A stretch of 58,249 nucleotides of DNA from contig NZ_JAQTWM010000013.1 in the NCBI RefSeq assembly GCF_028689305.1, positions 1 to 58,249 of the forward strand, written 5' to 3'. Of the stretch, positions 23,274 through 46,937 are shown in pieces (position 1 is the stretch's first letter; the number at the start of each line of letters is the position of its first letter). This DNA is from Rhodoferax sp. (GTDB taxonomy: Bacteria > Pseudomonadota > Gammaproteobacteria > Burkholderiales > Burkholderiaceae_C). Position numbers and translations under genes: made by a program. Below the pieces are notes generated by a model. The model had not been told where the DNA came from and did no database searches. It was given only the letters and a program-made list of their open reading frames with translations.

Positions 23274-26200
23274 CTACCGCACCACCTCGGACCGACAACG
23301 ACGCCACAAGCACTGCGCGTCCTGATAGTCTGGCGTGTCCAGGCCCTCAGTAAACCAGCAGCTGACGGCCCCCAGCAGCTGTTGGGCCTGCGCCTGCTTG
23401 CCCTGGCTGAGCCACAGCCGCCCCAGGCTGGTGGCCACACGCAGCTCCAGCGATTTCGCCCCCTGCTGCTGGCAAATCGTCAGAGCCTGACCAAAGCAGG
23501 CTTCGGCCGCGGCAACATCAGGCAGCCACTGTCCCAGCAGGCATTCGCCCTGGAGCCGCAGGATCTCGCTTTCCTGAAAACGGTCATCCCTGGCCTGGGC
23601 CACAGCGAGCGCCGTGGTCGCCGTGGAAAGGGCCTCCTGCCACTGGCCCAAACGCATCTGGGCTTCAAGCAATGGCACCAGGAAAAACGCCTCGACCCCG
23701 CCCATCGCGGCACGCACCGTTGCCACACCCGATTGCAGTTGGGCAACCCCGTGGCCTTGCCCCTGCATGGTCACGGCCCAGCCCTGAAACGCGGTCCCCG
23801 TCAGCAACCACAACGGAAAGCCATGCTGGTGGGCCTGAACCATGGTGTCCTCGGCCATTTGCCGTGTGGTGCCGATCTGTCTCAGCCAACGCTGAAGCAC
23901 CATGACGTGAGCGCAGGCATAACACTGGCTGTAGGGGTGATTGACTTCACGCGCCAGAGCCAGTGTCTTTTCACCAACCACCCGTGCCTGGTCAGGAAAC
24001 CCCTGCAGCCATAACACCCAGGTCAACTGAGAGCCGGTGGAGACACAGATGTTTTCGCCCAATTCACGCACCATGATGTCGTGGTGCGCCGTCTGGTACA
24101 GCGCCATGCCTTGCTCCTGATGACGGCGCGCCTGACTCAGGCGACCGGTCCAGAGCAAGCTGTTGCCCATGGCGTAATGTGCCTTTTGCAGGTGCAGCGG
24201 ATCTTGATCCCGCTGCGCCAGTTGCAACAGTTTCTTGGCCAGCTGCAGGGCATGGCCGTGCCCGGCACATGAACTTGCCCCCAGCCACAGGCCCCAGGTG
24301 GCCCTGAACAGTCCGGACCGCTCACCCAGCGCCTCGGCCAGTTGCGTGGCCTGTGTGTACTCGGCGCCGGCCTCCACCGAGCCATAACCCTGGACGGCGA
24401 TCAGGATCGCCCCCAGGCGGGTGCGCGTCGTCAACACCAGTCGATCACGTTCTGCCGAAGGTGGCAGCGCCAACAGAAGTTGCAAACCGGTGTTGAGATG
24501 ATCCAGGGCTTCCAGATGGGCCGAACTCAGCACCGCGCGTTGCCCGGCCTTGAGCCAGTAGTCGACCGCTTGCCGTGTGTCACCGCCTGCAGACAAATGG
24601 CGCGCCAACAATTCAGGCTGGACCGCGATCACGTCCGGGAAATGACTGAGCAGCGTTTGCGCAATACGTTGATGCGAAGCCTGCCGCACCAGCCTGGTTT
24701 GTGATTGATAGGCCGCCTCCTGAATCAAGGCATGCCTGAATTGGCAGGATGCCCCATCCACCCTGACGATCAGCCCCGCCTCCTCCAAGGTGCGCAAGCT
24801 GCGCGCCAGTTCGTTCGGTGCCGTGGCGGCAATGTGCGTCAACACAGCCAGATTGAACTGGCGCCCGATGGTGGCGGCAAGCTGTGCCGTGGTTTTGGCG
24901 TCTCCCAGACTGTCAATACGGCTGGCCAGCAAGTCGTGCAGCGTGGCCGGAATACTGGCCGGATTGCCGGACGAGGCCATTTTGGCCATCTCTTCCACAA
25001 ACAGCGGCACACCATCGGCGCGCCCCACAATGCGGCGCCTGGTGACAACCGGCATGTCGGGCCGAAGGGCAGCCATCATGCGCATCATCTCGTCCACCCC
25101 CAGCGGGGCCAACACCAGGGTGCGCTCCAGCGATGACGGCCACGGTGGATCAAAGTCAGGGCGCGCGGTCAATATCGCCAAAATCGCCTGGGAACCTTTC
25201 TGCTCAATGAACAGTGTCAACCATTCCAGTGTGGACGGGTCCATCCAATGCAGGTCCTCCACGAGGAACAATACCGGTCGTTGCACCGCCAACGCATGAA
25301 CCATCTCCATCAGCATACGGTTGATCTGCTCCTTCTGCTTTGACGGTGAGGAACCAAGCAGGGCGTACCGCTGATCCAGCGGCAGCGAAAAAAGACCTGT
25401 CAACAAGGGCACCGCCGTCGCCACCGAAGCCGGGAACCGGGTTTCAAGGTATGCAACCAGCTTGCCCGAGCGCACCGCAGCCGAATCGCCGGGCACAAAA
25501 TCCAACAGCCGCTCCAGCATCACCAGCAGCGGGTGAAAAGGTGATTGGCTGAATTCCGGAAAACAACGCAACTCGCAAACAACATGCGGCTGGTCTGCCA
25601 GGCGCTGCTTCAGGGTGTGCAACAAGCGGGATTTGCCAATACCGGCCTCACCCTCAAGCAGTACCACGTGGCACGCGCCTTGCGTTGACGCTTGCCACAA
25701 ACCGACCAGTTCCATGATTTCTGCCTTGCGGCCAATCAACGGCGTGAGTTGCGCGGCGGCGTCCAGTCGGGTGCGCACCCCATTTTCCCGGACCACTTCG
25801 AATATGTCCTGCTCGTGTCCACCACCAGGCAGCGTCTGTGCGCCCAGGCTGTGGCAATCGAAATATCCGGCCACCAGGTGGTGGGTGTCCTGACTGATCA
25901 CCACCGGGTGCTGTGCTGGCCTGTGGCTCAACGCCATGGCGATACGGGTTGTTCTGCCGGACGTATCCGGCATGGATGAGTCTCTGCCGGTCATGATCAG
26001 ACCCGTGTGCACACCGGCGCGGATGCCGACACCTGGAGCCGCCTCGCCCGTCAGCGCCAGCGCCGCCAGCACGGCGCGGTGGGCGACCTCTTCATGGGCC
26101 TGCGGATACCCAAAATATGCCAGCAGTCCCCCGCCATGCGCCTGGACAACATGTCCAGAAAACTGCGCCATGATCTCCACACAGCGCGCCTGGGGGGCGC

Positions 26201-27185
26201 GTAGCAGGGCCATGACCTCATCAGGATCGTCCATCACGGCGTGCACCAACTCGCAGTACACCACTGTCACCTGCCGCGACTGGGCCGGCTCGCCTGCCGG
26301 GCCGTGGCGCCGCGGCCTTGTCCCGTGCCACCCCTTAACGGGTGCGCCAAGACGAATCTGCTCAGCCAATTGCCGGGTTTCCTCGCTGGGCAGCACACCC
26401 AGTTCCTGCTTCAGCAAGCTGCAGCAACATGCATACTGACTCAGCGCTGCACCGCTGTGCCCCATTGACGCGTAATCACGCATGACCCGGCGGTGGCCCT
26501 CTTCGTCCCAGGGCGCCAATTCGGTGTACCTCAAGGCCGCCTGCAAAACCTTGTGCTGCTGCCCCATGGGCCCATAACGCGTGTAGAGCTGATCGAGCAA
26601 AGTCAAGGCCTGCCGATGCAGGATTTCCCGCTGGCGCTGGAGCCAGTCATTCAACTCCGGGCAGTCCGGGATGAACAGGCCGGCCAGGAACTCCCCCCGA
26701 TAGAGCGCCATGCGCTGCTCCAGCCGATGGAGCTCAGCTGCCGGCGTAGCCGCTGATGCCGCATCGGTTCCCAGGAAATCCATCACATCCACATGGTGGG
26801 CCAGGGAGGCCGGAAAGCGCAGTGCTTTCGGGGAGCGGTCAACCGAGCTGGCCGCCGACTTGCCGCCTGTGTCTGCTGCACCAAGCTCGGCCAACGCGGC
26901 ACGCAGGTCAAACAGGCAACGCCGCAGATTGCCCCGTGCCGTCGTTGCCGGGACCGTTGGCCAGAACAACTTCGCCAAATGTTCACGGCGTTGTTCCTGC
27001 GGCTGCATCACCAGATAGGCCAACAACACGCGCAATTTGTCATAAGAAAATTTCCGCAGCGCCACCCCCCCGACACTGACAGAGAAGCCTCCAAAAAATC
27101 TCACTTGCAACAACTGTTGTTGTGGCGCTGCCTTCTCGGCTGCTTTGGCATTCATGTCGTTGTCATGCGGGAACGAGCGCCCCAT
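23274..27185 (-). CDS. Giant SARP-BTAD-cyclase-like-AAA-TPR regulator, paralogue 2
   Basis: 1303 aa, the last gene of a four-gene operon. Domain order: OmpR/SARP-type winged helix (25-105, 'LLQVRFFGGFSVSVGG', 'KLRVLLAYLV'); BTAD (about 130-280); class III nucleotide-cyclase homology domain (303-445); AAA ATPase with Walker A EGEAGIGKS (511-519) and Walker B VLFLVEDLHW (638-647); helical TPR-like repeats to the end. There is no C-terminal LuxR helix-turn-helix, so it is not a classical LAL regulator. The cyclase domain has Glu312 where the first metal Asp belongs and GGG (351-353) where 'GDG' belongs, so it should not make a cyclic nucleotide. The start overlaps the upstream gene by 23 bp; a later ATG at 27155 is an alternative. 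Confidence 0.85.
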   Translation of the reverse strand: MGRSFPHDNDMNAKAAEKAAPQQQLLQVRFFGGFSVSVGGVALRKFSYDKLRVLLAYLVMQPQEQRREHLAKLFWPTVPATTARGNLRRCLFDLRAALAELGAADTGGKSAASSVDRSPKALRFPASLAHHVDVMDFLGTDAASAATPAAELHRLEQRMALYRGEFLAGLFIPDCPELNDWLQRQREILHRQALTLLDQLYTRYGPMGQQHKVLQAALRYTELAPWDEEGHRRVMRDYASMGHSGAALSQYACCCSLLKQELGVLPSEETRQLAEQIRLGAPVKGWHGTRPRRHGPAGEPAQSRQVTVVYCELVHAVMDDPDEVMALLRAPQARCVEIMAQFSGHVVQAHGGGLLAYFGYPQAHEEVAHRAVLAALALTGEAAPGVGIRAGVHTGLIMTGRDSSMPDTSGRTTRIAMALSHRPAQHPVVISQDTHHLVAGYFDCHSLGAQTLPGGGHEQDIFEVVRENGVRTRLDAAAQLTPLIGRKAEIMELVGLWQASTQGACHVVLLEGEAGIGKSRLLHTLKQRLADQPHVVCELRCFPEFSQSPFHPLLVMLERLLDFVPGDSAAVRSGKLVAYLETRFPASVATAVPLLTGLFSLPLDQRYALLGSSPSKQKEQINRMLMEMVHALAVQRPVLFLVEDLHWMDPSTLEWLTLFIEQKGSQAILAILTARPDFDPPWPSSLERTLVLAPLGVDEMMRMMAALRPDMPVVTRRRIVGRADGVPLFVEEMAKMASSGNPASIPATLHDLLASRIDSLGDAKTTAQLAATIGRQFNLAVLTHIAATAPNELARSLRTLEEAGLIVRVDGASCQFRHALIQEAAYQSQTRLVRQASHQRIAQTLLSHFPDVIAVQPELLARHLSAGGDTRQAVDYWLKAGQRAVLSSAHLEALDHLNTGLQLLLALPPSAERDRLVLTTRTRLGAILIAVQGYGSVEAGAEYTQATQLAEALGERSGLFRATWGLWLGASSCAGHGHALQLAKKLLQLAQRDQDPLHLQKAHYAMGNSLLWTGRLSQARRHQEQGMALYQTAHHDIMVRELGENICVSTGSQLTWVLWLQGFPDQARVVGEKTLALAREVNHPYSQCYACAHVMVLQRWLRQIGTTRQMAEDTMVQAHQHGFPLWLLTGTAFQGWAVTMQGQGHGVAQLQSGVATVRAAMGGVEAFFLVPLLEAQMRLGQWQEALSTATTALAVAQARDDRFQESEILRLQGECLLGQWLPDVAAAEACFGQALTICQQQGAKSLELRVATSLGRLWLSQGKQAQAQQLLGAVSCWFTEGLDTPDYQDAQCLWRRCRSEVVR

Positions 27186-30100
27186 TCAAAACGCGCAGCA
27201 ATTCCAGCGCCGCCTGAAAGTCACGCGTGTCTCGGCCCTGCGCAAACCAGCGGCAAACCTCTTCCAGCAAATGCCGCGCCTGGGCAGACTGGCCTTGTGA
27301 TTGCCAAAGACGCGCCAGGCTGATCGCAGCACGCAACTCCAAAGATCTGGCCTGTTGTCGGCGGCTGACCGCCAGCGCCTGGGCAAAGCAGGCTTCGGCC
27401 TGGGCGACGCTGGCGGTGGACAGCCCGAGCAAACACACGCCCTGGAGCCGGTACAACTCAGCGGTGAAATGGCCATCACCACAACGCTGCGCGTCCGCCT
27501 GGGTCTGCACCAACAGGCAGTGCGCCTCTTCGTACCGGCGCAAATGCACATAGGCCTCCACCAGGGGGACCAAAAATGCCACCGAGATGCCCCCCATCGC
27601 CTGCCGCATTCGGCTCACACTTGACTGGAGTTCGGCAATACCTTCGTCGTGCTGCCCGTGCATCACCATGGCCCAGCCGTGCGACATTTCACCCACCGTC
27701 AACCAGACCGAAAGACCATGCTGGCGCGCCAGGGAAATCGTTTCGGCAGACAGGGACAACGCTTGAGCAGACAGGCCCATCCAGCGATAGAGTGCCAGCG
27801 CAAAACTCATGGCTGAGGCCAGCGTCTGCGGACGGTCTGAGCACGCTCGCGCCTGGTTCAGCATGCGATCACACACCGCCAGCGCCTGATCCGCAAACCC
27901 AAGCAAATACAACGCCCACGACATGTAGGCCATGGGCCCGGACTGATCCTGATTAAATCGCGCCAGCAACTCCTGGCTGTGCTCTGGCTGATACAGCGCC
28001 AGCGCCTGCCTGGCATGGGTACAGGTGGTTTCAAAGTCACCCAGCCAGTAAGCCGCATTGGCCACGACATAGTGCGCCGCCTGCAGTCTCAGGGGATCAC
28101 CATGTGCCATGCCCAACAACTGCCTGGCTGACTTCAGCACCTCACGCTTGTGTGAGCCCACAACGGTCAGGGTGTTGATCACCAGCGCCCATCTCGCCTG
28201 AAACAGTTCCGGGCTGTCCCCCACCTGGTCACACAACACCGAAATGCGTGCATTCGCCTGTGACGCCTCCAGCGAGCCATACCCTTTTGCGCTGTAGAGC
28301 ACCGGGCACAGGTTGACCAGAATTCTGAATTCGGACTGATCCCGGTTCAAACCGGTCGGCAGCGCCTCCACCAGCTTCAGGGCGGCATGCAAATGGCCGA
28401 TGGCCTCCTGATTGGACGAGCGCTGAGCGGCATGGCGAGCAGCCGTCATCCAGCAGTCCATGGCAGGACAGATTTCCCCAGCCGCGGACAAGTGTTGTGC
28501 CAGAAGTTCTGGCTGCTGCGCAATGAATTCCTGGAAATCGCTTTGCAGCACCTGCGCGATCCGTCGGTGTGCGGCCTGCCGATCTGGTGTTGATTGGGAT
28601 TGATAAGCGGCCTCCTGAATCAACGCGTGTTTGAATTGGCCTGTGGTGTCACTCACGTTCAAAATCAGGCCAGCATCACGCAAAGCGTCCAGTTGGGTTA
28701 CCAATTCGCCGGCACTGGAGGGGTGGATTTTCCGCAGCAAAGCCAAGTCGAACTCGCGCCCCAGCGTGGCTGCCAGCTGGGCGGCGTGTCTGGCCGAACC
28801 CAGCATGTCCATGCGCGCGGCCAGCAAATCCTGCAGTGTGGCCGGTATCCCCGCCGGGTTGCCAGACGCAGCGATTTTGGTCATCTCCTCAACATACAAC
28901 GGCACCCCGTCGGCGCGTTCCACAATGCCATGAACCGCTTCCGGCATCATGTCGGCACGGATGGCGGCGACCATGGAGGTCACCTCGTTTTTTGTCAACG
29001 GACGCAAGTCCAAGGCCTTCATCAAGGCGGGCGGCCAGGGTGCGATGAATTCAGGCCGGGCCGTCAGCACCACCAAAACCGGGCTTTTGGCCGTCTGGCG
29101 AATCAACCGCGTCAACAGTTCCAATGTGGAAGGGTCGATCCAGTGCAGGTCTTCCACCACCAGCAACGTGGCTTGCCGTGTTGTCAGGCTGCTCAACAAT
29201 GCCAGAAGAACCGCCAGTATCTGCTCCTGCTGTTGGGGCGCCGCAAGCACAGGTGCCGCACTGGGCGCCAGCGGCAGGGAAAACCATTGCGCCAGCAGCC
29301 CGACCATGTCGAGGCCCGGCGTCCAGTCGTGCCTGGCCAGAGACGCCTGAAGTTTGTCAAATTTGGCCTTGGGCGTGTCCCCCGTGGCAAAACCCAAGGT
29401 CCCCTCCAGCATCACCAGGAGTGGGTGAAACGGCGACTGGGCATACTCCGGGAAGCAACGCCATTCACACAGTGCAAAAGCTGACCCCGCCAGTCGCGCT
29501 TTCAGAGCATGCAGCAAACGCGATTTACCCATGCCCGCCTCGGCTTGTAGCATCACCACCTGGCGTTCACCCCGCATCCCCTGGCGCCACCACGACAACA
29601 GCTGTGCCATTTCCGCCTCACGCCCGATCAAAGGTGTGAGCTGCGCTGCGGCATCCAGCCGGTGCTGCGCGCCACTTCTCCCGAACACACGCACCGCTTC
29701 ACCACCGTCACACGGCAGCGGTTCATCTGCGGCAGCACAATCAAAATACCCTGCCACGATGTGATGCGTCGCCCGGCTGATCAGCACCTCCCGGGGCGCC
29801 GCCTGTTGGCACAGGCCCATGGCCACCTTCGTGGTCTGACCCGAGGTGTCGGGCATGACCGAAGACCCGCCGGTCACCACCAGACCGGTGTGAATGCCCA
29901 CCCGCAGGTCAACACCGCAGCACACCTCATCCACCACGGCCAAAGCCGCCTGCACAGCCTGGCGGGCAGCATCCTCGCGGGCGCAGGGGAAACCGAAATA
30001 GGCCAACAAACCACCCCCGTGGGTTTGTACGACATGCCCTGAAAACTGCCGCAGAATATCCACGCAACGCGCCTGCCGGGGACCGAGCGCCGCCACCATC

Positions 30101-30999
30101 TCCTCCAGATCCTCGACACCCGCCAGGCCCAATTCGCAACACAACACGGTCACCTGGCGGCGCTGCGGCAACAGCGGCTCCCCAATGGACCATCCTTCCT
30201 CCCACACCGTGCCTGGAGGCATCGTCAACAAGGTGCCGCCGCGAATCTGCTCTGCCAGTTGCCTGGTTCTTTCCTCAGGTTGCGCACCCAGCAGACTCTT
30301 CAGCTGGCTGCTGCAAAGCTCATACTGACGCAGGGCCGCGCCACTTTGACCGCTCAAGGTATACAAACGCATGGCCCGGCGCTGGGCCGTCTCGTCACAC
30401 GGCTCCAGCTCGGCATAACGCAAGGCAAATGGCAAAGCCTGACGGTAGCGGCCGCGTTGCTCATACCAACTGCTCAGCTTTTCCAGCAAAAACAAGGCGC
30501 GACGATGCAAGGCAGCGCGCTGTTTTTGCAGCCAGTCCTGAAAACCGGGACAGTCAGGCAAGGACATGCCGGCCAGGAACTGGCCCCGATAAAGGGCCAG
30601 GATGCGTTCCTCATGCTCAATCGCAAGGACACTGTCTGGCGCATGGGGGGCGTCTGCGACAAAATCCATCACATCCACAGACCCTTTTGCGATGAACTGC
30701 AAGCTCACTTTGCTGGCTGAAAGCACGGCCGCCCCGCAAGGACGCTCAAGCGCCTGACGCAAATCGGTCAGGGTTCGGCGCAAGTTGCCACGCGCAGTGG
30801 TGGCATCGCTGCCGCACCACAACAAGCCGGCCAATACTTCCCGTTTGTGATGTTGCTCCCGTCCCATGACCAGGTAGGCCAACAAGGCGCGCATCTTCTG
30901 ATAAGACAAGCCGGTGACTGGATGGCCATTGAGCCGTGCCTCAAACCCGCCCAAAAAAAACCACTGGAAGTCAGGGCCTGGAGAAGACCATGCGGTCAT
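27163..30999 (-). CDS. Giant SARP-BTAD-cyclase-like-AAA-TPR regulator, paralogue 1
   Basis: 1278 aa and clearly a tandem paralogue of the next gene along its whole length. Winged helix at 11-85 ('FFLGGFEARLNG', 'MRALLAYLVMG'), BTAD to about 255, cyclase-like domain 281-425, AAA ATPase with Walker A AEAGMGKS (486-493) and Walker B 'LLVVEDLHWID', TPR-like helices to the end. The cyclase domain has the same two losses: Glu289 for Asp, and GGG at 328-330 for GDG. The ATG at 30999 lies three bases after the kinase stop, so translation is probably coupled. By analogy with SARP/AfsR proteins I infer an ATP-dependent transcription activator whose cyclase-like domain senses a ligand. The target genes are unknown. 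Confidence 0.85.
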   Translation of the reverse strand: MTAWSSPGPDFQWFFLGGFEARLNGHPVTGLSYQKMRALLAYLVMGREQHHKREVLAGLLWCGSDATTARGNLRRTLTDLRQALERPCGAAVLSASKVSLQFIAKGSVDVMDFVADAPHAPDSVLAIEHEERILALYRGQFLAGMSLPDCPGFQDWLQKQRAALHRRALFLLEKLSSWYEQRGRYRQALPFALRYAELEPCDETAQRRAMRLYTLSGQSGAALRQYELCSSQLKSLLGAQPEERTRQLAEQIRGGTLLTMPPGTVWEEGWSIGEPLLPQRRQVTVLCCELGLAGVEDLEEMVAALGPRQARCVDILRQFSGHVVQTHGGGLLAYFGFPCAREDAARQAVQAALAVVDEVCCGVDLRVGIHTGLVVTGGSSVMPDTSGQTTKVAMGLCQQAAPREVLISRATHHIVAGYFDCAAADEPLPCDGGEAVRVFGRSGAQHRLDAAAQLTPLIGREAEMAQLLSWWRQGMRGERQVVMLQAEAGMGKSRLLHALKARLAGSAFALCEWRCFPEYAQSPFHPLLVMLEGTLGFATGDTPKAKFDKLQASLARHDWTPGLDMVGLLAQWFSLPLAPSAAPVLAAPQQQEQILAVLLALLSSLTTRQATLLVVEDLHWIDPSTLELLTRLIRQTAKSPVLVVLTARPEFIAPWPPALMKALDLRPLTKNEVTSMVAAIRADMMPEAVHGIVERADGVPLYVEEMTKIAASGNPAGIPATLQDLLAARMDMLGSARHAAQLAATLGREFDLALLRKIHPSSAGELVTQLDALRDAGLILNVSDTTGQFKHALIQEAAYQSQSTPDRQAAHRRIAQVLQSDFQEFIAQQPELLAQHLSAAGEICPAMDCWMTAARHAAQRSSNQEAIGHLHAALKLVEALPTGLNRDQSEFRILVNLCPVLYSAKGYGSLEASQANARISVLCDQVGDSPELFQARWALVINTLTVVGSHKREVLKSARQLLGMAHGDPLRLQAAHYVVANAAYWLGDFETTCTHARQALALYQPEHSQELLARFNQDQSGPMAYMSWALYLLGFADQALAVCDRMLNQARACSDRPQTLASAMSFALALYRWMGLSAQALSLSAETISLARQHGLSVWLTVGEMSHGWAMVMHGQHDEGIAELQSSVSRMRQAMGGISVAFLVPLVEAYVHLRRYEEAHCLLVQTQADAQRCGDGHFTAELYRLQGVCLLGLSTASVAQAEACFAQALAVSRRQQARSLELRAAISLARLWQSQGQSAQARHLLEEVCRWFAQGRDTRDFQAALELLRVLNGALVPA

Positions 31000-31002
31000 G
31001 GC

Positions 31003-32760
31003 CTAGACCAGCGCCGTCTGGCAGCCCGACATGACCCGCTGCAGGGCGGCGCGCAATTCATCGGGTTGCAAGGGCTTGTGCAACACGGGAAAGCCGCCTT
31101 CACGGATTTCAAGAATCCGGTCCGGTGCGGTGTCCCCGGTCACCAGCAAGGCAGGCACATCCACACAAAACTCCATGCGCACCTTGTCAATGGCGTCCAG
31201 CCCGTTTTCCGTGCCGCGTAACCGGTAATCACACACCAGGACATCGGGCGGCGTGGGGTAGGCCGCCAATTGCTCCACCGCATCGTCCCCGGTAGCTGCT
31301 GTCACCACCACACAACCCCACTGTCTGAGCAACATGCCAATGGCGGCGCGAATCGCTGCCTCATCATCAATCACCACAATCAGTCGCCCGACCAGGCTGC
31401 CCGCGCCAACTTCGGGTTTGTCAGCCGGCTCCGGCGCGTGCTCAAACGTGTCTTCACATTCAAAATCCACGGCAAACATCGAGCCCCGCCCGGGCTCGGA
31501 CTGCAGGTGAATCGGCGCACCCAGCAGGTTGGACACCCGGTTGACAATGGCCAGCCCCAGACCCAGCCCCTTGGTGCGGTCACGCTCGGGGTTGGACAAC
31601 TGGAAATACTCCTCAAACACGGCTTGCTGTTTGTCCTGCGGAATACCGGTCCCGGTGTCAAAAACGGCCAACCGCAACAGCTGGCCGCGCCGGCGGCAAG
31701 CGACCAGAATTTTGCCCTGGTGGGTGTAGCGCACCGCGTTGGATACCAGATTACGCACGATGCGCTCGGCCAACGCCGGGTCCGTGCGGATGAACCGACT
31801 TGACTTGACCACCCGCAAATCCAGCCCTTTTTCCCTGGCCGGGGGTTCGAACTCCACCCGGATGCGCTCCAGCAGCTGGCTGACCGGAAAGATGGTCAGG
31901 TTCGGTGTCACGGCACCAGCATCCAGACGCGACATGTCCAGCAACACGCTGAACATGTCGTCCATGGCCACGGCGCACTGCCGGGCGTAAGACAACAACA
32001 GCTGCGCCTCCGAAGACAGCTCGACATTCTCCATGGCACCGTGGTACAGGTTCAGGGCGTGCATGGGCTGGCGCAAATCATGGCTGGCCGCTGCCAGAAA
32101 ACGCGACTTGGCCAGGTTGGCGTTTTCCGCCGCTTCTTTCTGCAAAGTCAACTCACGCACCAGGTCCAGGTTCTGGAAACGCAACAGCAGAGAGTCAATA
32201 TAACTGCGGTTGAACCGTTGGCCGGACCACAACATGAACAGCAGATACAGAAAGGTGGCCACGCCCATCCCGCCGTGCAGCATCGTTCCCTGCCCCATCA
32301 ATGCCGCAATGGTGAGTGTCATCAACACCAGGAAAAAGCCACGAAAAGACGGGAAATAGGCCCCCAGGCTGAACATGCCCCCCACCGTCAGGATGGCCAT
32401 CCCGGCCAGCATCGCAAACTGGTACGTTGGCACCCCGGCAGAAATCACCACCGCCGACATGACACCCCAAAGCAGGCCCAGCAAAATGTTGCCAATCACA
32501 TTCCAATGAAACCATTGGCGCATCAACCTGGGGTCACCCAGACTCGCACGCGGATAACGCCGACGCAAGCCGAAGGTCCAGGCCATGTTGCCGACAAACA
32601 GCAACAGCCATACCGACAGAAAGAGCTGCAGTGCCCCCAGCCCGAGGAACACAATCACAAAGGCACACAAGGCACCACCAAAATTGCCCCATAACACCAA
32701 AGGGCTGCCATCATGCAGGTTACGCGCCTGTTCGAGCCGGACCGCCTCGTCTCTACTCAT
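31003..32760 (-). CDS. Hybrid sensor histidine kinase with C-terminal receiver
   Basis: 585 aa. Five to six membrane helices fill residues about 25-180. The HisKA domain carries the phosphorylated His227 in 'AAASHDLRQP'. The ATPase domain has N341 ('NLVSNAVRYT'), DTGTGIP (368-374) and the G-box GLGLGLAIV. A receiver domain follows from about 460 with acceptor Asp511 ('LVCDYRLR') and 'LHKPLQPDEL'. The 'SHDLRQPMHALNLY' form is typical of kinases paired with NarL-type regulators in Burkholderiales. GGGGA precedes the ATG at 32760. Gene order (regulator, kinase, two SARP-type activators) suggests one signalling unit. No extracellular sensor domain is obvious, so the membrane helices themselves may sense the signal. 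Confidence 0.9.
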   Translation of the reverse strand: MSRDEAVRLEQARNLHDGSPLVLWGNFGGALCAFVIVFLGLGALQLFLSVWLLLFVGNMAWTFGLRRRYPRASLGDPRLMRQWFHWNVIGNILLGLLWGVMSAVVISAGVPTYQFAMLAGMAILTVGGMFSLGAYFPSFRGFFLVLMTLTIAALMGQGTMLHGGMGVATFLYLLFMLWSGQRFNRSYIDSLLLRFQNLDLVRELTLQKEAAENANLAKSRFLAAASHDLRQPMHALNLYHGAMENVELSSEAQLLLSYARQCAVAMDDMFSVLLDMSRLDAGAVTPNLTIFPVSQLLERIRVEFEPPAREKGLDLRVVKSSRFIRTDPALAERIVRNLVSNAVRYTHQGKILVACRRRGQLLRLAVFDTGTGIPQDKQQAVFEEYFQLSNPERDRTKGLGLGLAIVNRVSNLLGAPIHLQSEPGRGSMFAVDFECEDTFEHAPEPADKPEVGAGSLVGRLIVVIDDEAAIRAAIGMLLRQWGCVVVTAATGDDAVEQLAAYPTPPDVLVCDYRLRGTENGLDAIDKVRMEFCVDVPALLVTGDTAPDRILEIREGGFPVLHKPLQPDELRAALQRVMSGCQTALV

Positions 32761-32795
32761 CAGATTCCCCGATGTCTTGATGGCACATCGCCCGC

Positions 32796-33416
32796 TCAGG
32801 CCAGCAACTTCAAATTGCGGGCCTGCCGGACCGCCTGCAGACGGCTCACCACACCCAGGGCCTGAAACAGCGCCGTGATATGGTTTTTGACCGTCTTCTC
32901 GGACAACCCCAGCTGCAGGGCAATATCCTTGTTGGTCAGGCCCTGGTCAAACATCAGCAAGATGTCAAGCTGGCGTGCGGTGAGCTGGGGCGCTACGGCC
33001 TGAGCCGCCTGGGCGGCCACAGGCGCTGGCAGGCTGGCACTGCTGCCGTGTGCCAGCGCCACCTTCACCGCATTGAGAATGGAGGCGGAAGCCTTGCTCT
33101 TGGGCACAAAGGCGCAGGCCCCCAGGCTGAGCATACGCTCGGGAATCCCATCAAACTCGTTGGCTGAAACCACAATCACCGGTGCCCCACCACTGCGCGT
33201 TTGCAAGGCCTTGATCAAACCGCCGCCATCCGCGTCAGGCAAACCACAATCCAGCAACACCACATCCAATGGCGTGTGAAATTCGGCCTGCTCCAACGCC
33301 TGCGCGGCTGTGGCCGCTTTGAAAATTTCCACACCACCAGGCAAGGAGGACACCAGCATTGCCAGACCATCACGCACCAGCGGATGGTCATCCACGATCA
33401 GAATTTTGTACGGCAC
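32796..33416 (-). CDS. NarL/FixJ-type response regulator
   Basis: 206 aa. The receiver domain has 'ILIVDDHPLVRDGL' and the acceptor Asp56 in 'VVLLDCGLPD'; Lys in 'FVPKSKAS' completes the site. The C-terminal LuxR-type helix-turn-helix is 'LTARQLDILLMFDQGLTNKD', then 'IALQLGLSEKTVKNHITALF'. The start codon is GTG at 33416 with a strong GGGGGAG site seven bases upstream. It is the first gene of the operon and divergent from the exported-protein gene at 33664, so its binding site may lie in the 247-bp gap. Confidence 0.93.
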   Translation of the reverse strand: MPYKILIVDDHPLVRDGLAMLVSSLPGGVEIFKAATAAQALEQAEFHTPLDVVLLDCGLPDADGGGLIKALQTRSGGAPVIVVSANEFDGIPERMLSLGACAFVPKSKASASILNAVKVALAHGSSASLPAPVAAQAAQAVAPQLTARQLDILLMFDQGLTNKDIALQLGLSEKTVKNHITALFQALGVVSRLQAVRQARNLKLLA

Positions 33417-33663
33417 GTTATCTCCCCCGGTATTTGACTTTGCAACCCGCTGTTCCTGAATGGACCTTGAGCATCATGGGTTGCCTCACGTTAACACCAT
33501 CACTCTGAACACTCGCGCAACCGGGACCTTTGTCCCACCAGGGCACAGCGTAGTGCATTGCGAACGTTTGGTGAACGCCTGCGCCATAGCATCCGCCAAC
33601 AATTCCCGTTTTGGGTCGTCTGATCGGCCCACCACACACCCATCTCCACCGCCAATACAAACC

Positions 33664-34242
33664 ATGAAAACTCAGAAGCCATTCCTTTGTGCAGTCCTCC
33701 TGCTCGCCGCCACAGCGGCGCACGACGCCTCCGCACAAGTCATTCTTGGGTTCAGCACAACCACCGTCAGCCCGGTGCCACTGTCGCCCTGGCTGACAGC
33801 GACCATGACTTTGATGCTGGCAGTGATGGGCCTGGTGTTTATCCGCCGGAAAACCGGGCGCGGGTTGTTTCTGTTGACGCTGTCGATGCTGACCGGCGCT
33901 ACCACGCTGCTGCAGACGAACAACGGCTACGCCTATGGCGCCCCCATACTGCAGGCACTGGGCATCAGCGGCCATGAACTGACCGGAACCGATGTGGCGT
34001 GGATGACGCCCGGGCCAGTGTGCGGCCCGATTGGTTATGTCTGGATCAAGAGTGGTGCGGGCACAGCCGCCATTTCCTCGATCAGTTACCGTGCCGGTTA
34101 TTCAGCCCTTGATCCGAGCAGCCCCCCGGCGCCAACCGATGTGGCACTGCCAACCCCGGCAACGCCGGTCTGCAGCATCGGAACCAGCTTGACAGGACCT
34201 GACTCCTGCATCGTCTGGTACCAGAAAGCGGGCCCGTGTTAA
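33664..34242 (+). CDS. Exported protein with internal IPTL-like sorting signal (midcut-by-XrtH type)
   Basis: 192 aa. A signal peptide (MKTQKPFLCAVLLLAATAAH, cleavage near 'ASA-Q') is followed within 15 residues by 'VSPVPLSPWLTATMTLML', a hydrophobic span, and a basic stop 'FIRRKTGRG'. This motif-helix-basic layout is the IPTL-type exosortase recognition signal, which usually sits at the C-terminus. Here a further 120 residues follow, with a second hydrophobic stretch and a cysteine-containing tail (GPVCGPIGYVWIK, 'TPVCSIGTS', 'PDSCIVWY'). I recall this layout as NCBI's 'midcut-by-XrtH' family. No exosortase gene is in the window. It is divergent from the two-component operon and may be its target. 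Confidence 0.68.
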   Translation: MKTQKPFLCAVLLLAATAAHDASAQVILGFSTTTVSPVPLSPWLTATMTLMLAVMGLVFIRRKTGRGLFLLTLSMLTGATTLLQTNNGYAYGAPILQALGISGHELTGTDVAWMTPGPVCGPIGYVWIKSGAGTAAISSISYRAGYSALDPSSPPAPTDVALPTPATPVCSIGTSLTGPDSCIVWYQKAGPC

Positions 34243-41183: not shown

Positions 41184-43732
41184 AGCGCGTGTTATCCCTG
41201 CTCTGCACCTTCTCCTGGCAGGAGCTGCGCCAGCACCCGTGGCGCCATGGTGCCGCGGTGCTGGCGGTGATGCTGGGGGTGGCGCTGGCGTTTGCGGTGC
41301 ACCTGATCAACAACTCGGCGCTGGACGAGTTTGCCCAGGCGGCGCGTTCGGTCGGCGGCCAGAGTGACCTGGAGCTGCGCGCCGTGCAGGGATCGTTTGA
41401 CGAGGCGCTGTTTGCGCGGGTGGCGCGCACCCCCGGCGTGGCGCTGGCGGCGCCGGTGCTGGACATCGGCAGCGCCATCCAGACGCCGCAAGGCCTGCGG
41501 CCGCTGCGCGTGCTGGGCGTGGATGCCCTGGTGCTGCCGGCGCTGGCCCCGGACCTGATGCCGCAGCCGTCCGCCGCCCACGCCAGCCGCTGGGCTCTGC
41601 TGAGCCCGGGGCAGGTGTTTCTGAACCCCGCGGCCCAGCGCCTGACGGCCGCTGCCCCCACGCTGCAACTGCAAAGCGGCCGGCAATGGCACAGCGTGGT
41701 GGTGGCCGGCAGCGTGCGGGCCAGCGGGCCAGCGCTGGCGGTGATGGACATAGGTGCCGCCCAGGAGCTGTTTGACCGGCAGGGCCAGCTCAGCCGCATC
41801 GACCTGCGGCTGCAGCCCGGGGTGTCGCGCGAGGCGCTGGCACGCACCCTGCAGGCCGCACCCGACTGGCCGCAAGGGGTGACAGTGGCCGTGCCCGACA
41901 ACAGCCCAGCCCAGATCGGCAACCTGTCCCGCGCCTACCGTGTCAACCTGACGGTGCTGGCGCTGATGGCCCTGTTCACCGGCGCGTTTCTGGTGTTTTC
42001 GGTGCTGTCGCTCAGTGTCGCCAAACGCGCGCAGCAATTCGCCCTGCTGGGGGTGCTGGGCCTGGGCGCGCGGGCGCGGCTGGCGCTGGTGCTGTGGGAG
42101 TCGCTGGCGCTGGGCCTGGTCGGCAGCGGCGCCGGGCTGGCGCTGGGCACGGCACTGGCGGCGCTGGCCTTGCGCCTGCTCGGGGGCGATCTGGGCGGCG
42201 GCTTTTTTGCCGGGGCGGCACCCGACCTGCAGTTCAGCGCCGGCGCGGCGCTGGTTTATGGCGCGCTTGGTGTGGCCGCCGCCCTGGCCGGTGGCTGGTG
42301 GCCGGCGCGCCGGGCGCAGCAATTGCCGCCCGCCCAGACGCTCAAGGGCCTGGGCAGCCAGGGACCGCAGCGCAGCGGGCCGGGGCTGAGTCTGGTGTTG
42401 ATCGTGGCCGGCGCGGCGCTGACGCAGGCACCGCCGGTGGCTGGCATCCCGCTGGCGGCTTATGTGGCCATTGGCCTGCTGCTGGTGGGCGGCATCACGG
42501 CGCTGCCGGGGCTGATTGGTCTGCTGCTGGGCCAACTGGCGCCGCGGCTGGCGCGCCAGACCCTGCCGCTGCTGGCGCTGGAGCGCGCGCGCCGCCAGCG
42601 CGACACCGCGGCTGTGGCGGTCAGCGGCGTGGTGGCATCCCTGAGCCTGGCGGTGGCGCTGACGGTGATGGTGGCGAGTTTTCGGGATTCGGTCAGCCAG
42701 TGGCTGGACCAGCTGCTGCCAGCCGACCTGTATGTGCGCAGCGCCGTCCTCTCAAGCAGCCACGACCCGGTGTTTTTCAGCCCGCAGCTGGTCGAGGCCG
42801 CGACCCAGCTGCCCGGGGTGCGACAGGTGCAGGCCCAGCGCTGGGTGCCTCTGCCCTTGCAGGCCAGTCTGCCGCCGGTGGCGCTGCTGGCGCGTGAACT
42901 GGGTGACCCGGCGCGCAGCCTGCCACTGACCACAACCGCGCTGCCGGTGCCGCCAGGCCAGATCGGCCTGTTTGTCAGTGAGGCGGTGGTCGATCTGCAT
43001 GGCGCCCGGGTGGGTCAGCCTTTCCCCTTGTTTGACCAGGCTTTTAGGCCTCTAGCCCGGAAGGAATATGCCTCATCAGCTACGTTTTTTGTAGCTGGCG
43101 TGTGGCGTGATTACGCCCGCCAGAGTGGCGCCATCGCGATGGATCTGGCCGCCTTCCAGCGTCTGACGGGGGATGGGCGCACCAATGATCTGGCCTTGTG
43201 GCTGACGCAGCCCGACACCGCGCCAGCCGTCCAGCAGGCGCTGCAGGCCCTGGCCCCGGAGCTGGCGCTGGAGTTTGGCAGCGCAGCGCAGATCCGCGCC
43301 CGCTCGCTGAAGATCTTTGACCGCAGCTTTGCCGTCACCACCTGGCTGCAGGCGGTGGCGATCGCGATTGGCCTGTTTGGCGTGGCGGCCAGCTTCAGCG
43401 CCCAGGTGCTGGCGCGGCGCAAGGAGTTCGGTCTGCTGGCGCACCTGGGGCTGACGCGCCGCCAGATCCAGACGGTGGTGGCGCTGGAGGGGCTGGCCTG
43501 GACCACCCTGGGTGCGCTGGCCGGTCTGGGCCTGGGGCTGCTGGTGTCGGTGGTGCTGGTGCATGTGGTCAACCCGCAGAGTTTTCACTGGACCATGACG
43601 CTGATGGTGCCCTGGCTCAAATTGCTGGCACTGTGCCTGGCGGTGGTGCTGGCCGGCACCGTCACGGCCTGGCTGGCGGCCCGTGCGGCAGCGGCTCAGG
43701 ATGCGGTGCTGGCGGTCAAGGAAGACTGGTAG
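41180..43732 (+). CDS. FtsX-like ABC transporter permease
   Basis: 850 aa from a GTG at 41180 that overlaps the pabB stop. It has one N-terminal helix ('AAVLAVMLGVALAFAVHLIN'), a periplasmic domain, three helices around 250-400, a second pair of helices and soluble domain, and three C-terminal helices ('EFGLLAHLGLTRRQIQTVVA' is the usual cytoplasmic loop). This double-FtsX layout belongs to the lipoprotein/lipid export type (YbbP-like), partner of LolD-type ATPases. A 20-residue section in the second periplasmic domain (FRPLARKEYASSATFFV) is encoded by an in-frame interspersed repeat. Its last 17 bases overlap the convergent GGDEF-EAL gene. Confidence 0.88.
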   Translation: MKRVLSLLCTFSWQELRQHPWRHGAAVLAVMLGVALAFAVHLINNSALDEFAQAARSVGGQSDLELRAVQGSFDEALFARVARTPGVALAAPVLDIGSAIQTPQGLRPLRVLGVDALVLPALAPDLMPQPSAAHASRWALLSPGQVFLNPAAQRLTAAAPTLQLQSGRQWHSVVVAGSVRASGPALAVMDIGAAQELFDRQGQLSRIDLRLQPGVSREALARTLQAAPDWPQGVTVAVPDNSPAQIGNLSRAYRVNLTVLALMALFTGAFLVFSVLSLSVAKRAQQFALLGVLGLGARARLALVLWESLALGLVGSGAGLALGTALAALALRLLGGDLGGGFFAGAAPDLQFSAGAALVYGALGVAAALAGGWWPARRAQQLPPAQTLKGLGSQGPQRSGPGLSLVLIVAGAALTQAPPVAGIPLAAYVAIGLLLVGGITALPGLIGLLLGQLAPRLARQTLPLLALERARRQRDTAAVAVSGVVASLSLAVALTVMVASFRDSVSQWLDQLLPADLYVRSAVLSSSHDPVFFSPQLVEAATQLPGVRQVQAQRWVPLPLQASLPPVALLARELGDPARSLPLTTTALPVPPGQIGLFVSEAVVDLHGARVGQPFPLFDQAFRPLARKEYASSATFFVAGVWRDYARQSGAIAMDLAAFQRLTGDGRTNDLALWLTQPDTAPAVQQALQALAPELALEFGSAAQIRARSLKIFDRSFAVTTWLQAVAIAIGLFGVAASFSAQVLARRKEFGLLAHLGLTRRQIQTVVALEGLAWTTLGALAGLGLGLLVSVVLVHVVNPQSFHWTMTLMVPWLKLLALCLAVVLAGTVTAWLAARAAAAQDAVLAVKEDW
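43041..43099 (-). repeat. Interspersed repeat, copy 12, inside the ABC permease gene
   Basis: On the minus strand: AGCTACAAAAAACGTAGCT stem, then GCATATTCCTTCCGGGCTAG and AGGCCTAAAAGCC. It is close to the miaA copy (both have AGCT-ATGAGGCA after the stem) but lies in the opposite orientation relative to the gene. It keeps the reading frame open. Confidence 0.75.
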
Positions 43733-46700
43733 GCGCCACCCCGGCCCAGGCCGGATCGGGGTGCCAGCTGGCCAGCCAGCCGGGCAGTTCGCTGGCCGGC
43801 ATCGGGCGGGCAATGCCGTAGCCCTGCGCCAGATGGCAGCCCAGCCGCAGCAGCAGGGTGCCGTGCGCCACGGTTTCGACACCTTCGGCAATCACCTGAC
43901 GCTTGAAGGCACGCGCCAGACCGATCACCCCTTCCATGATGGCCAGATCGTCTGCATCTGCCAGCATGCCGCGCACAAAACTCTGGTCGATCTTGATCAC
44001 CTCGACCGGCAGGTACTTCAGGTAGGTCAGGGAGGAATAACCGGTGCCGAAGTCATCCAGCGCAAACCCCACCCCGAGCTGCTGGCAGTCATGGATCACC
44101 CGGGCGGTGCGCTCCAGGTCATGCAGCGCGCTGGTTTCCAGCACTTCGAGCTGCAACAAGGTGGTATCGACGCCGGGGAACCGGGCCAGCATCTCGGCCA
44201 GACGCTGGACAAAATTTTCCTCCTGCAGCTGGCGGGCGCCGACGTTCACACTCACCTGGAACACCAGGCCCTGGGCCTGCCACTGCTGCATCTGTGTCAG
44301 GGCGGCGCGGATCACCCATTCCCCCAGGCTGACCGCCAGCGCATGGTCTTCCACCACCGGTAAAAAGTCGGCCGGCGACAGCCGCCCCTTGGTCGGGTGC
44401 TGCCAACGGATCAGCGCTTCGGCACCGATCACCACACCGGTTTGCAGGTTGACCTTGGGCTGGTAATACAGCTCAAATTCCGCGTGTTCAAGGGCGCGGG
44501 CGATTTCATCCAGGCTTTCGTGCAGCCCGCGCACGCTGCGGTCATGCGCCGCATCAAAGGCGTGGTAACGGTTCTTGCCCGACACCTTGGCCTGGTACAT
44601 GGCCTGATCGGCCTGGCGCATGAGCTGGTCGGCATCCACCGGCTCGGCCTGCGGATAAAAGGTCACACCCAGGCTGGCCGACACCTGCAGCCGCACATCA
44701 CCAAACGGCATGGACAGGGCGGCGGCGGCCAGCAGCCGTTTCAGGGTTCCGGCGCAGTCATTGGCATCGGACAGGTCGGCCAGCACCGCCACAAACTCGT
44801 CGCCGCCCAGGCGCGCCAGGGTGTCGCCCTCACGCAGGGCGTTGCGCATGTTGCCGGCCACGCCGACGAGCAGCTGGTCACCGGCTTCGTGGCCATAGGT
44901 GTCGTTGATCTGTTTGAAGCCATCCAGGTCCAGATAGGCCACGGCCACCAGCTGGCCCCGGCGCTGTGCCTGGGCCATGGCCTGCTTGAGCCGGTCGGCC
45001 AACAACACCCGGTTGGGCAGGTTGGTCAGCGCGTCAAAGTGGGCAATGTGTTCCAGCTGCTGCTGGTGTTCCTTGTTGGCCGTGATGTCGAAAAACATGG
45101 CCACATAGTGCTGGACCGATTGCGCGGCATCACGGACCGCACTGATGGTGAGCAGTTCGGCGTACACCTCGCCGTCCTTGCGCCGGTTCCAGAGTTCACC
45201 TTGCCAGTGGCCGACTGACTTCAGTTCGGCAAACATGGCCTGGTAAAACTCGTGGCTTTGCCGACCCGAACTCAGGATCCGGGGGTTGCGGCCCAGCACC
45301 TCTTCGCGGCGGTAGCCGGTGATGGTGGCGAAGGCGGCATTGGCGTCAACGATGTTGGCGTCGGCATCGGTGATGCAAATGCCTTCGCGGGCGTGTTCAA
45401 ACACGCTGGCGGCCAGCCGCAGCTGGTCTTCGGTCTGGCGCCGCTCGGTGATGTCGGTGTCAATGCCGATCATGCGCAGGGCTTTGCCATGGGCATCACG
45501 GCTGACAATCTGCCCCTGCTCCAGCATCCACTTGTAGCTGCCGTCCTTGCAGCGCACACGGTTTTCATGGCGATAACGCGGCGTCTCACCGCGCAGACAT
45601 TGGTTAAGCGCCGCCAGCGTCGAGGCGCGGTCGTCCGGATGCAGGCGCGACTCCCACTCGTTGGTGTTTTGGCCCAGTTCATGGTCCTGGTAACCGAGTG
45701 TGGCTTTCCAGCTTTCCGACAGGAACAGCGTGCCCGCTGGAATATTCCAGTCCCACAAGCCGCCGCCAGAGGCCTCGACCGCAAACTTCCAGCGAAATTC
45801 ACTCTCCGCCAGCGCCTGCCGCTGGCGCAGCACCTGGTTCTGGCGCGAGCGCAATTGCTGCCCGGTCATCCACAGGCGCGCGCCGAGCAACAGGATCAAC
45901 AGCAGGGCCACACCGGCCCCCATCAGCTCGGTGCGGTAACGCAGCACCACATCACGCAGGGTGAACGCCGGCTCGACGTCAAACGGCGGCATGCGCAAGG
46001 CCCGCAGCACGTCGGCCACACGCGAATAGTCGTCCGGCACCGAGAACCCGCGGATACCCATGGCCTGGGCGCTGGCGGAATCCGCCTGGATCGAGAACAA
46101 CGCGGCAGTCACGCGCCGAGCCAGATGTTCATCCACATGACCGAGATAGGAAAACGGCCATTCCGGGTACAACGGGGTCGACGACAACACCGGAAAACCG
46201 GTGAGCTGCTGCGCATTGAGCACCCGCACCTGCGCCAGATCGAGTTTGCCTTCGCGCTGCATGGCTTCGAGCAGGCCGGTGCGGACAAAACCAACGTCCG
46301 CCTTGCCTTGCAAGACGGCCGCCACCACCCGGTCCTGCGGCACCCCGGTGAACATCAGCTTGCTGGACGCATTCAGCACCACACCCACGCGCAGCAGCTC
46401 AAAGGCCTGCATCTGGTAGCCCCCGAGAGAGTCGCTGCCAACCGCCGCCATCGTCATGTTCTTGAGTTCGGACAGTGACACCGGCTCGGGCCGATCGGAG
46501 CGGGTGAACATGACGCCGCCAAAGCCGGCCACCTCCACGCCACTTTCATTCACCAGCAGGGTGGCCAGCGGCGCCTTCAGGTCGGTCAGCCGGGCCAGCT
46601 TCACATAGTGTCCCGGGTTGGTCAGGACAAATTCCACCTCCTGCCGGGCCACCACCGCCTCCATTTCTGCGAGGGTGTAGGCCCGCACCTCAAAGTCGTA

Positions 46701-46937
46701 ATCCGGGACACTGGCTTTGAGCACCTTCACCAAGGGCTGCCACTGTGCCAGGGTTTGCGCCTTGGGCCGAAACGCCAGCACAGCGATCTTGACCGTATCC
46801 AACGCATGGCTTGGCCACGCCGCCAGCAGCAGGGCCAGGCCCAGAACCCACAACACCAGGCTCCGTTGGGGCTTGCGGCACCCCCCAACGCGAACCAAAT
46901 CGCCACCTGGGGGCTGAAAACGGAAGAAGGTATGCAT
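43716..46937 (-). CDS. PhnD-like sensor, PAS-PAS-GGDEF-EAL cyclic-di-GMP protein
   Basis: 1073 aa from the ATG at 46937. Signal/anchor helix about 27-46; a periplasmic PhnD-type binding domain about 47-300 ('DTVKIAVLAFRPKAQTLAQW', 'LTNPGHYVKLARL'); a membrane helix about 338-357; two PAS domains; GGDEF (LARLGGDEF) with an inhibitory RxxD site (REGD) five residues upstream; EAL domain with 'AEALIRWQHP', 'LDDFGTGYSSL' and 'IAEGVET'. Both catalytic motifs are intact, so it could make or break cyclic-di-GMP. The binding domain suggests it senses a phosphonate, phosphite or similar oxyanion, or an amino-acid-like ligand. It is divergent from the amino-acid uptake operon. Confidence 0.9.
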   Translation of the reverse strand: MHTFFRFQPPGGDLVRVGGCRKPQRSLVLWVLGLALLLAAWPSHALDTVKIAVLAFRPKAQTLAQWQPLVKVLKASVPDYDFEVRAYTLAEMEAVVARQEVEFVLTNPGHYVKLARLTDLKAPLATLLVNESGVEVAGFGGVMFTRSDRPEPVSLSELKNMTMAAVGSDSLGGYQMQAFELLRVGVVLNASSKLMFTGVPQDRVVAAVLQGKADVGFVRTGLLEAMQREGKLDLAQVRVLNAQQLTGFPVLSSTPLYPEWPFSYLGHVDEHLARRVTAALFSIQADSASAQAMGIRGFSVPDDYSRVADVLRALRMPPFDVEPAFTLRDVVLRYRTELMGAGVALLLILLLGARLWMTGQQLRSRQNQVLRQRQALAESEFRWKFAVEASGGGLWDWNIPAGTLFLSESWKATLGYQDHELGQNTNEWESRLHPDDRASTLAALNQCLRGETPRYRHENRVRCKDGSYKWMLEQGQIVSRDAHGKALRMIGIDTDITERRQTEDQLRLAASVFEHAREGICITDADANIVDANAAFATITGYRREEVLGRNPRILSSGRQSHEFYQAMFAELKSVGHWQGELWNRRKDGEVYAELLTISAVRDAAQSVQHYVAMFFDITANKEHQQQLEHIAHFDALTNLPNRVLLADRLKQAMAQAQRRGQLVAVAYLDLDGFKQINDTYGHEAGDQLLVGVAGNMRNALREGDTLARLGGDEFVAVLADLSDANDCAGTLKRLLAAAALSMPFGDVRLQVSASLGVTFYPQAEPVDADQLMRQADQAMYQAKVSGKNRYHAFDAAHDRSVRGLHESLDEIARALEHAEFELYYQPKVNLQTGVVIGAEALIRWQHPTKGRLSPADFLPVVEDHALAVSLGEWVIRAALTQMQQWQAQGLVFQVSVNVGARQLQEENFVQRLAEMLARFPGVDTTLLQLEVLETSALHDLERTARVIHDCQQLGVGFALDDFGTGYSSLTYLKYLPVEVIKIDQSFVRGMLADADDLAIMEGVIGLARAFKRQVIAEGVETVAHGTLLLRLGCHLAQGYGIARPMPASELPGWLASWHPDPAWAGVAPTSLP

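Follow-up and report, generated by a model that had tools for sequence, protein, structure and literature searches.

The stretch of DNA analysed here (the window) comprises 58,249 nucleotides of contig NZ_JAQTWM010000013.1 from a Rhodoferax sp. (assembly GCF_028689305.1), and carries on its minus strand four closely spaced genes: a NarL/FixJ-type response regulator, a hybrid histidine kinase and two very large proteins, giants A and B, which we propose to be SARP-type activators of a divergent gene, X (Table 1). The four open reading frames (ORFs) lie where an earlier sequence-only reading had placed them, their spacings of 35, 3 and -23 bp were reproduced, and the host is, as that reading had it, a betaproteobacterium; gene X and its predicted operator lie just outside the interval covered then (23274..33416). 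In the protein database, giant B (P0005) begins ten codons further downstream and has 1293 aa, which would turn the overlap into a 7-base gap. Tight spacing is the one indication that the four genes may be co-transcribed, and scans for promoters and terminators of the putative operon gave counts near shuffle level (3 vs 1.8 and 14 vs 11.8, respectively). The best NCBIfam match of the regulator, ErdR, reached 106 bits, below the cut-off of 390. The kinase has a hydrophobic N-terminal part (judged by eye) ahead of HisKA, HATPase_c and receiver domains, and its C-terminal part is nearest to the NahK/ErcS type (NF041832, 367.8 bits, below the cut-off of 400). A and B are the only matches at E <= 0.001, with no third copy, in the source genome, a 3.83 Mb draft of 187 contigs that is 86.5% complete. 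Loci, genomes and database proteins are denoted below by L, G and P numbers.

Table 1. Features of the putative operon and of the divergent promoter region, with positions in the window.
Feature	Position	Strand	Details
Response regulator, NarL/FixJ-type (receiver and GerE helix-turn-helix), first operon gene	32796..33416	-	206 aa, GTG start; Pfam
Hybrid histidine kinase (HisKA, HATPase_c, receiver)	31003..32760	-	585 aa; Pfam
Giant A: SARP (1-265), degenerate cyclase, AAA/STAND, TPR	27163..30999	-	1278 aa
SARP domain of giant A (winged helix and BTAD)	30205..30999	-	Profile match, AlphaFold2 model; presumed recognition helix TARGNLRRTLTDLR
Degenerate class III cyclase domain of giant A	29737..30099	-	Pfam, residues 301-421
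AAA_16 ATPase of giant A	29068..29634	-	Pfam; Walker A AGMGKS, Walker B VVEDLHW
Giant B: SARP, degenerate cyclase, AAA/STAND, TPR	23274..27185	-	1303 aa; presumed recognition helix TARGNLRRCLFDLR
Degenerate class III cyclase domain of giant B	25821..26231	-	Pfam, residues 319-455, below cut-off
Predicted SARP operator, GCGAACG-TTTG-GTGAACG, two heptamers, 11-bp period	33560..33577	+	Sequence pattern
Predicted -10 of gene X, TAGCAT, 9 bp past second heptamer	33587..33592	+	Spacing
Gene X, divergent, predicted target	33664..34242	+	192 aa, signal-peptide-like N-terminus

The two giants are 47% identical (598/1279 aligned positions) and have the domain order that the sequence-only reading gave them, with a SARP/BTAD-type front followed by cyclase-homology, AAA and TPR regions. 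In Pfam searches, BTAD (E 1.8e-19 in B, 1.4e-18 in A) and AAA_16 (E 1.5e-18 in B, 1.3e-20 in A) were found in both, TPR_12 scored at the cut-off or slightly below it, Guanylate_cyc was weak (E 0.0096 in B, under the cut-off; 1.3e-5 in A, over it), and GerE was found in neither; the Walker motifs of the AAA domains are intact. A profile built from 13 N-terminal SARP domains matched EmbR (PDB 2fez, E 9.2e-14) and AfsR (PDB 8hvr, E 2.9e-13) end to end; engineered TPR proteins scored higher, but over the last helices only, and PDB searches with a whole giant or with single sequences returned TPR proteins only. AlphaFold2 modelling of residues 1-265 of giant A gave a best model with a predicted local distance difference test score of 91 and a predicted template modelling score of 0.84, the other four models scoring 75-81 on the former. 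Pfam, the profile and the AlphaFold2 model all place an OmpR-type winged helix ahead of BTAD, the arrangement by which SARPs are recognized.

At the four positions of the cyclase-like domain that we take to be catalytic (two metal-binding Asp, the transition-state Asn and an Arg; expected D, D, N, R), giant A has E, G, K, G and giant B has E, G, R, A, such that the quartet of a class III nucleotidyl cyclase is replaced at all four residues in both. The quartet was intact in none of 168 giant homologues (167 with a SARP match; the set includes duplicates, e.g. L054 = P0026), compared with 34 of 56 relatives without BTAD; a dead cyclase thus accompanies the SARP fusion. A SARP domain joined to a cyclase-like and AAA half without a LuxR helix-turn-helix is the combination found in both giants and, according to the available parts of two reports, the one that characterizes the PimR or SARP-LAL class (PMC3367932, PMC5930380). 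By their sequences, then, the architecture of the giants is that of the PimR class, with SARP, a presumably dead class III cyclase, AAA/STAND and TPR parts, and the fusion noted in the sequence-only reading has a counterpart in the literature. A role in defence was rejected, as PADLOC gave no match for the giants.

Comparison by reading of the X promoters of the window and of a second locus (L053) revealed GYGAACG heptamers separated by a 4-bp spacer, and the full element before X reads GCGAACG-TTTG-GTGAACG-N9-TAGCAT (33560-33592). A search for repeats in the X promoter region gave nothing telling. SARP promoters are described, in the portion of PMC10936776 available, as having repeats 11 or 22 bp apart with the 3' repeat 8 bp from the -10; at the level of sequence, the element before X has the same form, a 7-4-7 repeat that lies 9 bp from TANNAT, or 8 bp when the repeat frame is moved along by one base. 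A TANN(A/C)T motif lies exactly 9 bp downstream in 15 of the 16 boxes displayed from giant loci. The boxes also vary with the presumed recognition helix of the neighbouring giant, TAR[GA]N occurring with GAACG and AARDN with GGACG (L055, L066), apart from one box of L162 that has a GGACG half next to a TARGN giant. This pairing, two loci against the rest, may point to a possible SARP specificity code.

The association of the box with giants was examined at two scales. An alignment-based scan yielded at least 79 loci, a scan of genome contigs with a single giant protein having given no match. Within the loci, the exact pattern occurred eight times in 37 SARP-giant loci and was absent from 61 control loci, and neither the reversed pattern nor any of 200 column-permuted patterns occurred in the same loci. 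Allowing one mismatch, in 182 partly overlapping sequences (2.43 Mb, those under 3 kb skipped), GYGAACG-N4-GYGAACG boxes were found at giants in the window and in L039, L042, L053, L054, L063, L065, L161 and L162, the last two of which belong to one genome (G446). One-mismatch matches of other make-up, for which no promoter role was seen, occurred in L044, L083, L090, L097, L100, L110, L114, L118, L127, L128 and L168. Of 60 genomes searched, 22 have a SARP giant and 38 lack a full-length one; exact GYGAACGWTTGGYGAACG was found eight times among them: once each in the source genome (G000), G215 and G249, and five times in G446. None of the eight sites is more than ~8 kb away from a giant or its operon, the 38 genomes without a full-length giant contain no exact site, and the single copy in the source genome is the one before X; for a G+C content of 60%, a calculation by hand gives a chance expectation of about 0.06 exact hits.

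A test of geometry only (7-4-7 repeat, N9, TA....T) was positive for the 5' regions of nine of 36 giants, against 0.62 expected in base shuffles, and for one of 51 relatives without BTAD; L056 and L059, which end at the 5' side of the giant, were left out of the 5' tests, and L044, for which an antisense ORF had been selected in place of the giant, is absent from both the 36-giant test and the spacing counts given below. The nine positives are all NYGRACG-type repeats, and include two loci not found before, L055 and L066, with the heptamer NTGGACG. When each locus was left out in turn, matrix scores of the boxes were 22.7-44.5 (window, 24.9), compared with at most 18.6 in the 61 control loci (1.13 Mb), and a further box, in L060, was found by matrix at 35.8. 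Boxes of other sequence at L046, L047, L058 and L064, like the low-scoring matrix hits in L047 and L057, were compatible with background and are not claimed. In L046 (6523) and L047 (13235), from two genomes of one genus, the giant has a similar TCAACG-type 7-4-7 repeat at its 3' end, and the L046 repeat points into an ORF with a signal-peptide-like stretch.

Several observations weigh against a dedicated operator. The strict box is absent from the 5' regions of 27 of the 36 giants, the N9 geometry was picked after the first boxes had been seen, and the same geometry anywhere in the loci gave 22 hits (15 of them NYGRACG) compared with 11-24 at the other spacings from N5 to N13, as well as 19 hits in 1132 kb of control loci. 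One-mismatch matches also occur in control loci and inside other genes; among the 60 genomes, four of eight one-mismatch sites are at giants and four lie away from them, and with up to two mismatches there were 69 hits compared with 93 for the reversed control (summed by hand). The window box, with its TTTG spacer, is among the weaker ones by matrix score, and the box at L039 11688 is the one without a -10. Not every gene faced by a box has a surface or export function: the target is a hybrid kinase in L054, a PAS chemoreceptor preceded by two boxes in L162, and an AMP-ligase/condensation gene in L161, while further boxes in L042, L060 and L162 face ORFs that are small or unclear. Nor does composition help much: divergent surface-like genes were weakly enriched (5/33 vs 0/51, p = 0.008, dependent on the threshold), the 5' and 3' sides of the giants did not differ (p = 0.43), and the window itself failed this test.

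The longest ORF of gene X opens at 33460, but its relatives begin at the ATG at 33664. In mid-protein it has VPLSPW followed by a hydrophobic stretch and RRK, and it matches the midcut-by-XrtH family at 17.8 bits (E 0.0026), under the curated cut-off of 45; nine of the 11 members of the X family match at E <= 0.1, the best at 2e-7. We predict that X is a small exported protein, divergently related to midcut-by-XrtH proteins. The exosortase partner of that family, XrtH, is encoded in the source genome (192.3 bits, cut-off 86), along with six IPTL-CTERM matches. Among 89 genomes of the genus, X is present in two, both of which are among the four with a full-length giant and carry X adjacent to it; the chance of this is 6/3916 = 0.0015 (by hand). 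Among 399 genomes of the family, only the source genome has X. A third relative, P0160, and a giant, P0023, are on contigs of equal size (81033 bases). P0160 and the L053 protein are two of the ten other X relatives, and the remainder showed no link to a giant among the matches listed.

Elsewhere, the genes near giants were labelled with Pfam and NCBIfam for hand-picked ORFs, which serve as examples and not as a rate. Boxes face an X homologue and a 128-aa ORF in L053, an operon headed by a relative of the L053 prepilin-type ORF in L039, a YadA protein (L055), a cadherin/Big protein (L063), a tectonin protein (L065) and an RTX/DUF4347 gene behind a small ORF (L066). In L161 (600-8628), two back-to-back boxes lie between a C39-peptidase ABC exporter and a divergent ORF, truncated by the end of the sequence analysed and without a Pfam match, and a third precedes the AMP-ligase/condensation protein and the giant; the locus looks like one for a secreted peptide or lipopeptide. 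Giants without a claimed box are found near TPS/FHA-type adhesins (L057, L058, L061, L062), an autotransporter (L041), an InlB-repeat IPTL-CTERM protein (L164) and a laminin-G/cadherin protein (L092, an Anaerolineae bin). A simple IPTL-type C-terminus pattern gave no hits in the giant neighbours, the L164 protein having been found by Pfam. An MSHA-type pilus operon lies near the giant in L053 (MshL over the cut-off), with homologues in L039, L064 and L114; no MshL-type secretin scored over the cut-off in the source genome. Two L162 boxes, at 2613 and 12285, are followed almost directly by small ORFs with a common KG.AVHEKGNFS stretch, perhaps a peptide or a repeat.

PimR of Streptomyces natalensis, the SARP-LAL archetype (with PteR, SanG and PolR), shares with the giants the N-terminal SARP domain, the cyclase/LAL-like and AAA half and the lack of a LuxR helix-turn-helix, and its heptamers, too, have 4-bp spacers and are located between the regulator gene and its only target, which is transcribed divergently, as far as the accessible text goes (PMC3367932, PMC5930380). 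It differs, in the same text, in that its site consists of three CGGCAAG heptamers that do not overlap the -35, compared with two GYGAACG heptamers at the -35 position here, and in that its target is a regulator of antibiotic genes rather than, as predicted here in a proteobacterium, an exported protein. The upstream two-component pair and the second paralogue are further differences found here. Since heptamers vary among SARPs (PMC3367932, in part), the mismatch to the SARP-LAL consensus CGGCAAG speaks against close kinship in target but not against membership of the class. AfsR of Streptomyces coelicolor has the same SARP, NOD/STAND and TPR parts, in line with the profile match, and 11-bp direct repeats that overlap the -35 near the -10, as here (PMC10936776, in part). 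It has no cyclase-like domain, however, and the kinases acting upstream of it are of the Ser/Thr type, whereas the kinase next to the giants in the window is a hybrid histidine kinase. EmbR of Mycobacterium tuberculosis shares the winged helix and BTAD of the profile match, but its C-terminus is an FHA domain where the giants have STAND-TPR. TOMM kinase/cyclases (TIGR03903) and the BTAD-less cyclase-AAA-TPR proteins have a homologous cyclase-AAA-TPR half; they differ in lacking the SARP front and, in most of those sampled, in retaining the cyclase residues.

Together, these data probably reflect a pair of SARP activators dedicated to one neighbouring exported protein, X, and possibly gated by the two-component pair. 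The giants would be PimR-type transcription activators whose SARP domains, bound side by side to the heptamers at the -35 position, bring RNA polymerase to the -10 at 33587 and thereby turn on X. The STAND ATPase and TPR half would provide an ATP-dependent, ligand-controlled switch, with the cyclase-like domain as a dead, structural module, and the upstream hybrid kinase and NarL-type regulator would set the level of the giants. It is hardly conceivable that the giants are instead active signalling cyclases or TOMM-type kinase/cyclases: the cyclase-AAA-TPR part does match TIGR03903 (442 and 456 bits), but this is well short of the cut-off of 705.75, there is no kinase domain, and an active cyclase was rejected on the missing catalytic residues, which 34 of the 56 BTAD-less relatives retain. 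We also find it rather unlikely that the giants regulate many genes in trans, the X box being one site of many. Some STAND/TPR SARPs, for example AfsR, are pleiotropic, sites with two mismatches exist elsewhere in the source genome (C173, C174), and others may be missing from an assembly that is 86.5% complete; however, that genome has one exact box, exact boxes elsewhere cluster at giant loci, and the SARP domain of PimR, in the part of PMC3367932 available, bound a single target, the divergent promoter region.

The recognition helices of the giants were assigned from sequence, and two of the G446 boxes stand before small look-alike ORFs, as a repeat might, which leaves a slim chance that the operator belongs to some other SARP-type regulator or to a mobile repeat, with the adjacent giants acting otherwise. 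Against this, flanks and spacers vary across genera with the -10 spacing mostly kept, the box sequence tracks the helix in L055 and L066 (one L162 box excepted), and the 38 genomes without a full-length giant are free of exact boxes. A different arrangement, which extends the heteromer idea of the sequence-only reading, is possible but doubtful: the two heptamers would be occupied only by an A:B heteromer, with neither giant sufficing by itself, and the two-component pair would control this complex. It would account for two heptamers and two SARP proteins in one operon. The three single-copy relatives, moreover, resemble A in the winged helix (60-61%, vs 42-47% to B) and B in the AAA domain (55-71%, vs 48-51% to A) and TPR region (60-73%, vs 44-45% to A), pointing to retention of the ancestral DNA contact by A and of the ancestral sensor by B. 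The helix variant CLF of giant B was found in four of 109 homologues that fit the helix pattern (P0001, P0006, P0008 and L043; 59 of the 168 do not fit it), including all three B copies with an A partner, namely that of the window and those of two presumed pairs, so that the same helix difference recurs. These pairs are P0006 (71% to B) with P0147 (68% to A, only 834 aa) and P0008 (62% to B) with P0103 (66% to A), each matched by equal contig size (11006 and 22865 bases, respectively). On the other hand, single-copy relatives with the same box (L053, L039, L054) need no partner, and since B retains the core TARGNLRR residues, both giants may bind the operator and either could do so alone.

Relatives of the giants are widespread in Proteobacteria. 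At E 0.001, at least 1527 homologues of B and at least 3905 of A were found (8000 candidates scored each); the best 120 matches per giant include the names Rhodoferax, Gallionella, Methylobacter, Variovorax and Nitrosomonadales, and the matches listed also contain Sulfuritalea, Propionivibrio, a Zetaproteobacterium and others. At closer range they are sparse. A full-length giant is present in four of the 89 genomes of the genus (the source genome, G215, G249 and G258), with a fragment near a contig end in a fifth (G263), and at the order level 17 of 399 genomes match at 1e-120, ten of these only behind the SARP part. G215, G249 and G258 carry a single giant apiece, which shares 55-66% identity with B and 48-49% with A. 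The sequence-only reading envisaged a tandem duplication, but in a tree rooted on L104 the common ancestor of A and B spans 156 of the 168 tips, making them deep paralogues and not the product of a recent duplication. In a Gallionella locus (L057, 7283-15065), two tandem giants lie 26 bp apart with no kinase match nearby, and are somewhat nearer to A (52%) than to B (48%).

The two-component pair is not shared as widely. In a survey of 37 loci, whose neighbourhoods mostly spanned ~10 kb, some ended by the contig, and in which only relatives of this kinase and regulator were detectable, a histidine kinase core was matched in four (the window, L039, L053 and L054, all of this genus), and a NarL-type regulator with a kinase in two (the window and L053, in the latter with pair and giant transcribed towards each other). 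Giants are thus widespread and mostly without a related kinase, which by the sequence-only reading's own standard refutes its four-gene unit; with the kinase core confined to one genus, the two-component pair is, judging from gene neighbourhoods, a local rather than a general partner of the giants. A further protein in L170 reads like a kinase by eye.

SARPs are known chiefly as actinobacterial antibiotic switches. The same operator grammar, heptamers with an 11-bp period at a fixed distance from the -10, is seen here in members of the Beta-, Gamma- and Zetaproteobacteria, and the genes that it faces often serve surface, pilus or secretion functions; among the papers listed from the open-licence PMC literature, titles and the beginnings of abstracts yielded no description of such a regulator in Proteobacteria. 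Tentatively, and with a good deal less assurance than for the dedicated activation of X, we envisage a Proteobacteria-wide PimR-like SARP-STAND class, each member having a dead cyclase and a private heptamer-pair operator that ties it to a single adjacent gene with a role at the surface or in secretion (adhesin, pilus, RTX protein, XrtH substrate or peptide exporter). In this Rhodoferax, the regulator would have been split into two co-operonic paralogues, one retaining the ancestral DNA-binding end and the other the ancestral sensor end, under a two-component pair, so that one exported protein would be governed by a heteromeric switch with two inputs. The concrete predicted site, the named target and the correlation between helix and box make the function of a large, little-studied family directly testable. 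If correct, the dedicated activation of X would also open a way to study how an XrtH-type exported protein is regulated, a subject on which no paper was found in open-licence PMC. Elsewhere in the window, the minus strand encodes, at 43716-46943 and from a TTG start, a protein with a phosphonate-binding-type sensor and PAS, GGDEF and EAL domains.

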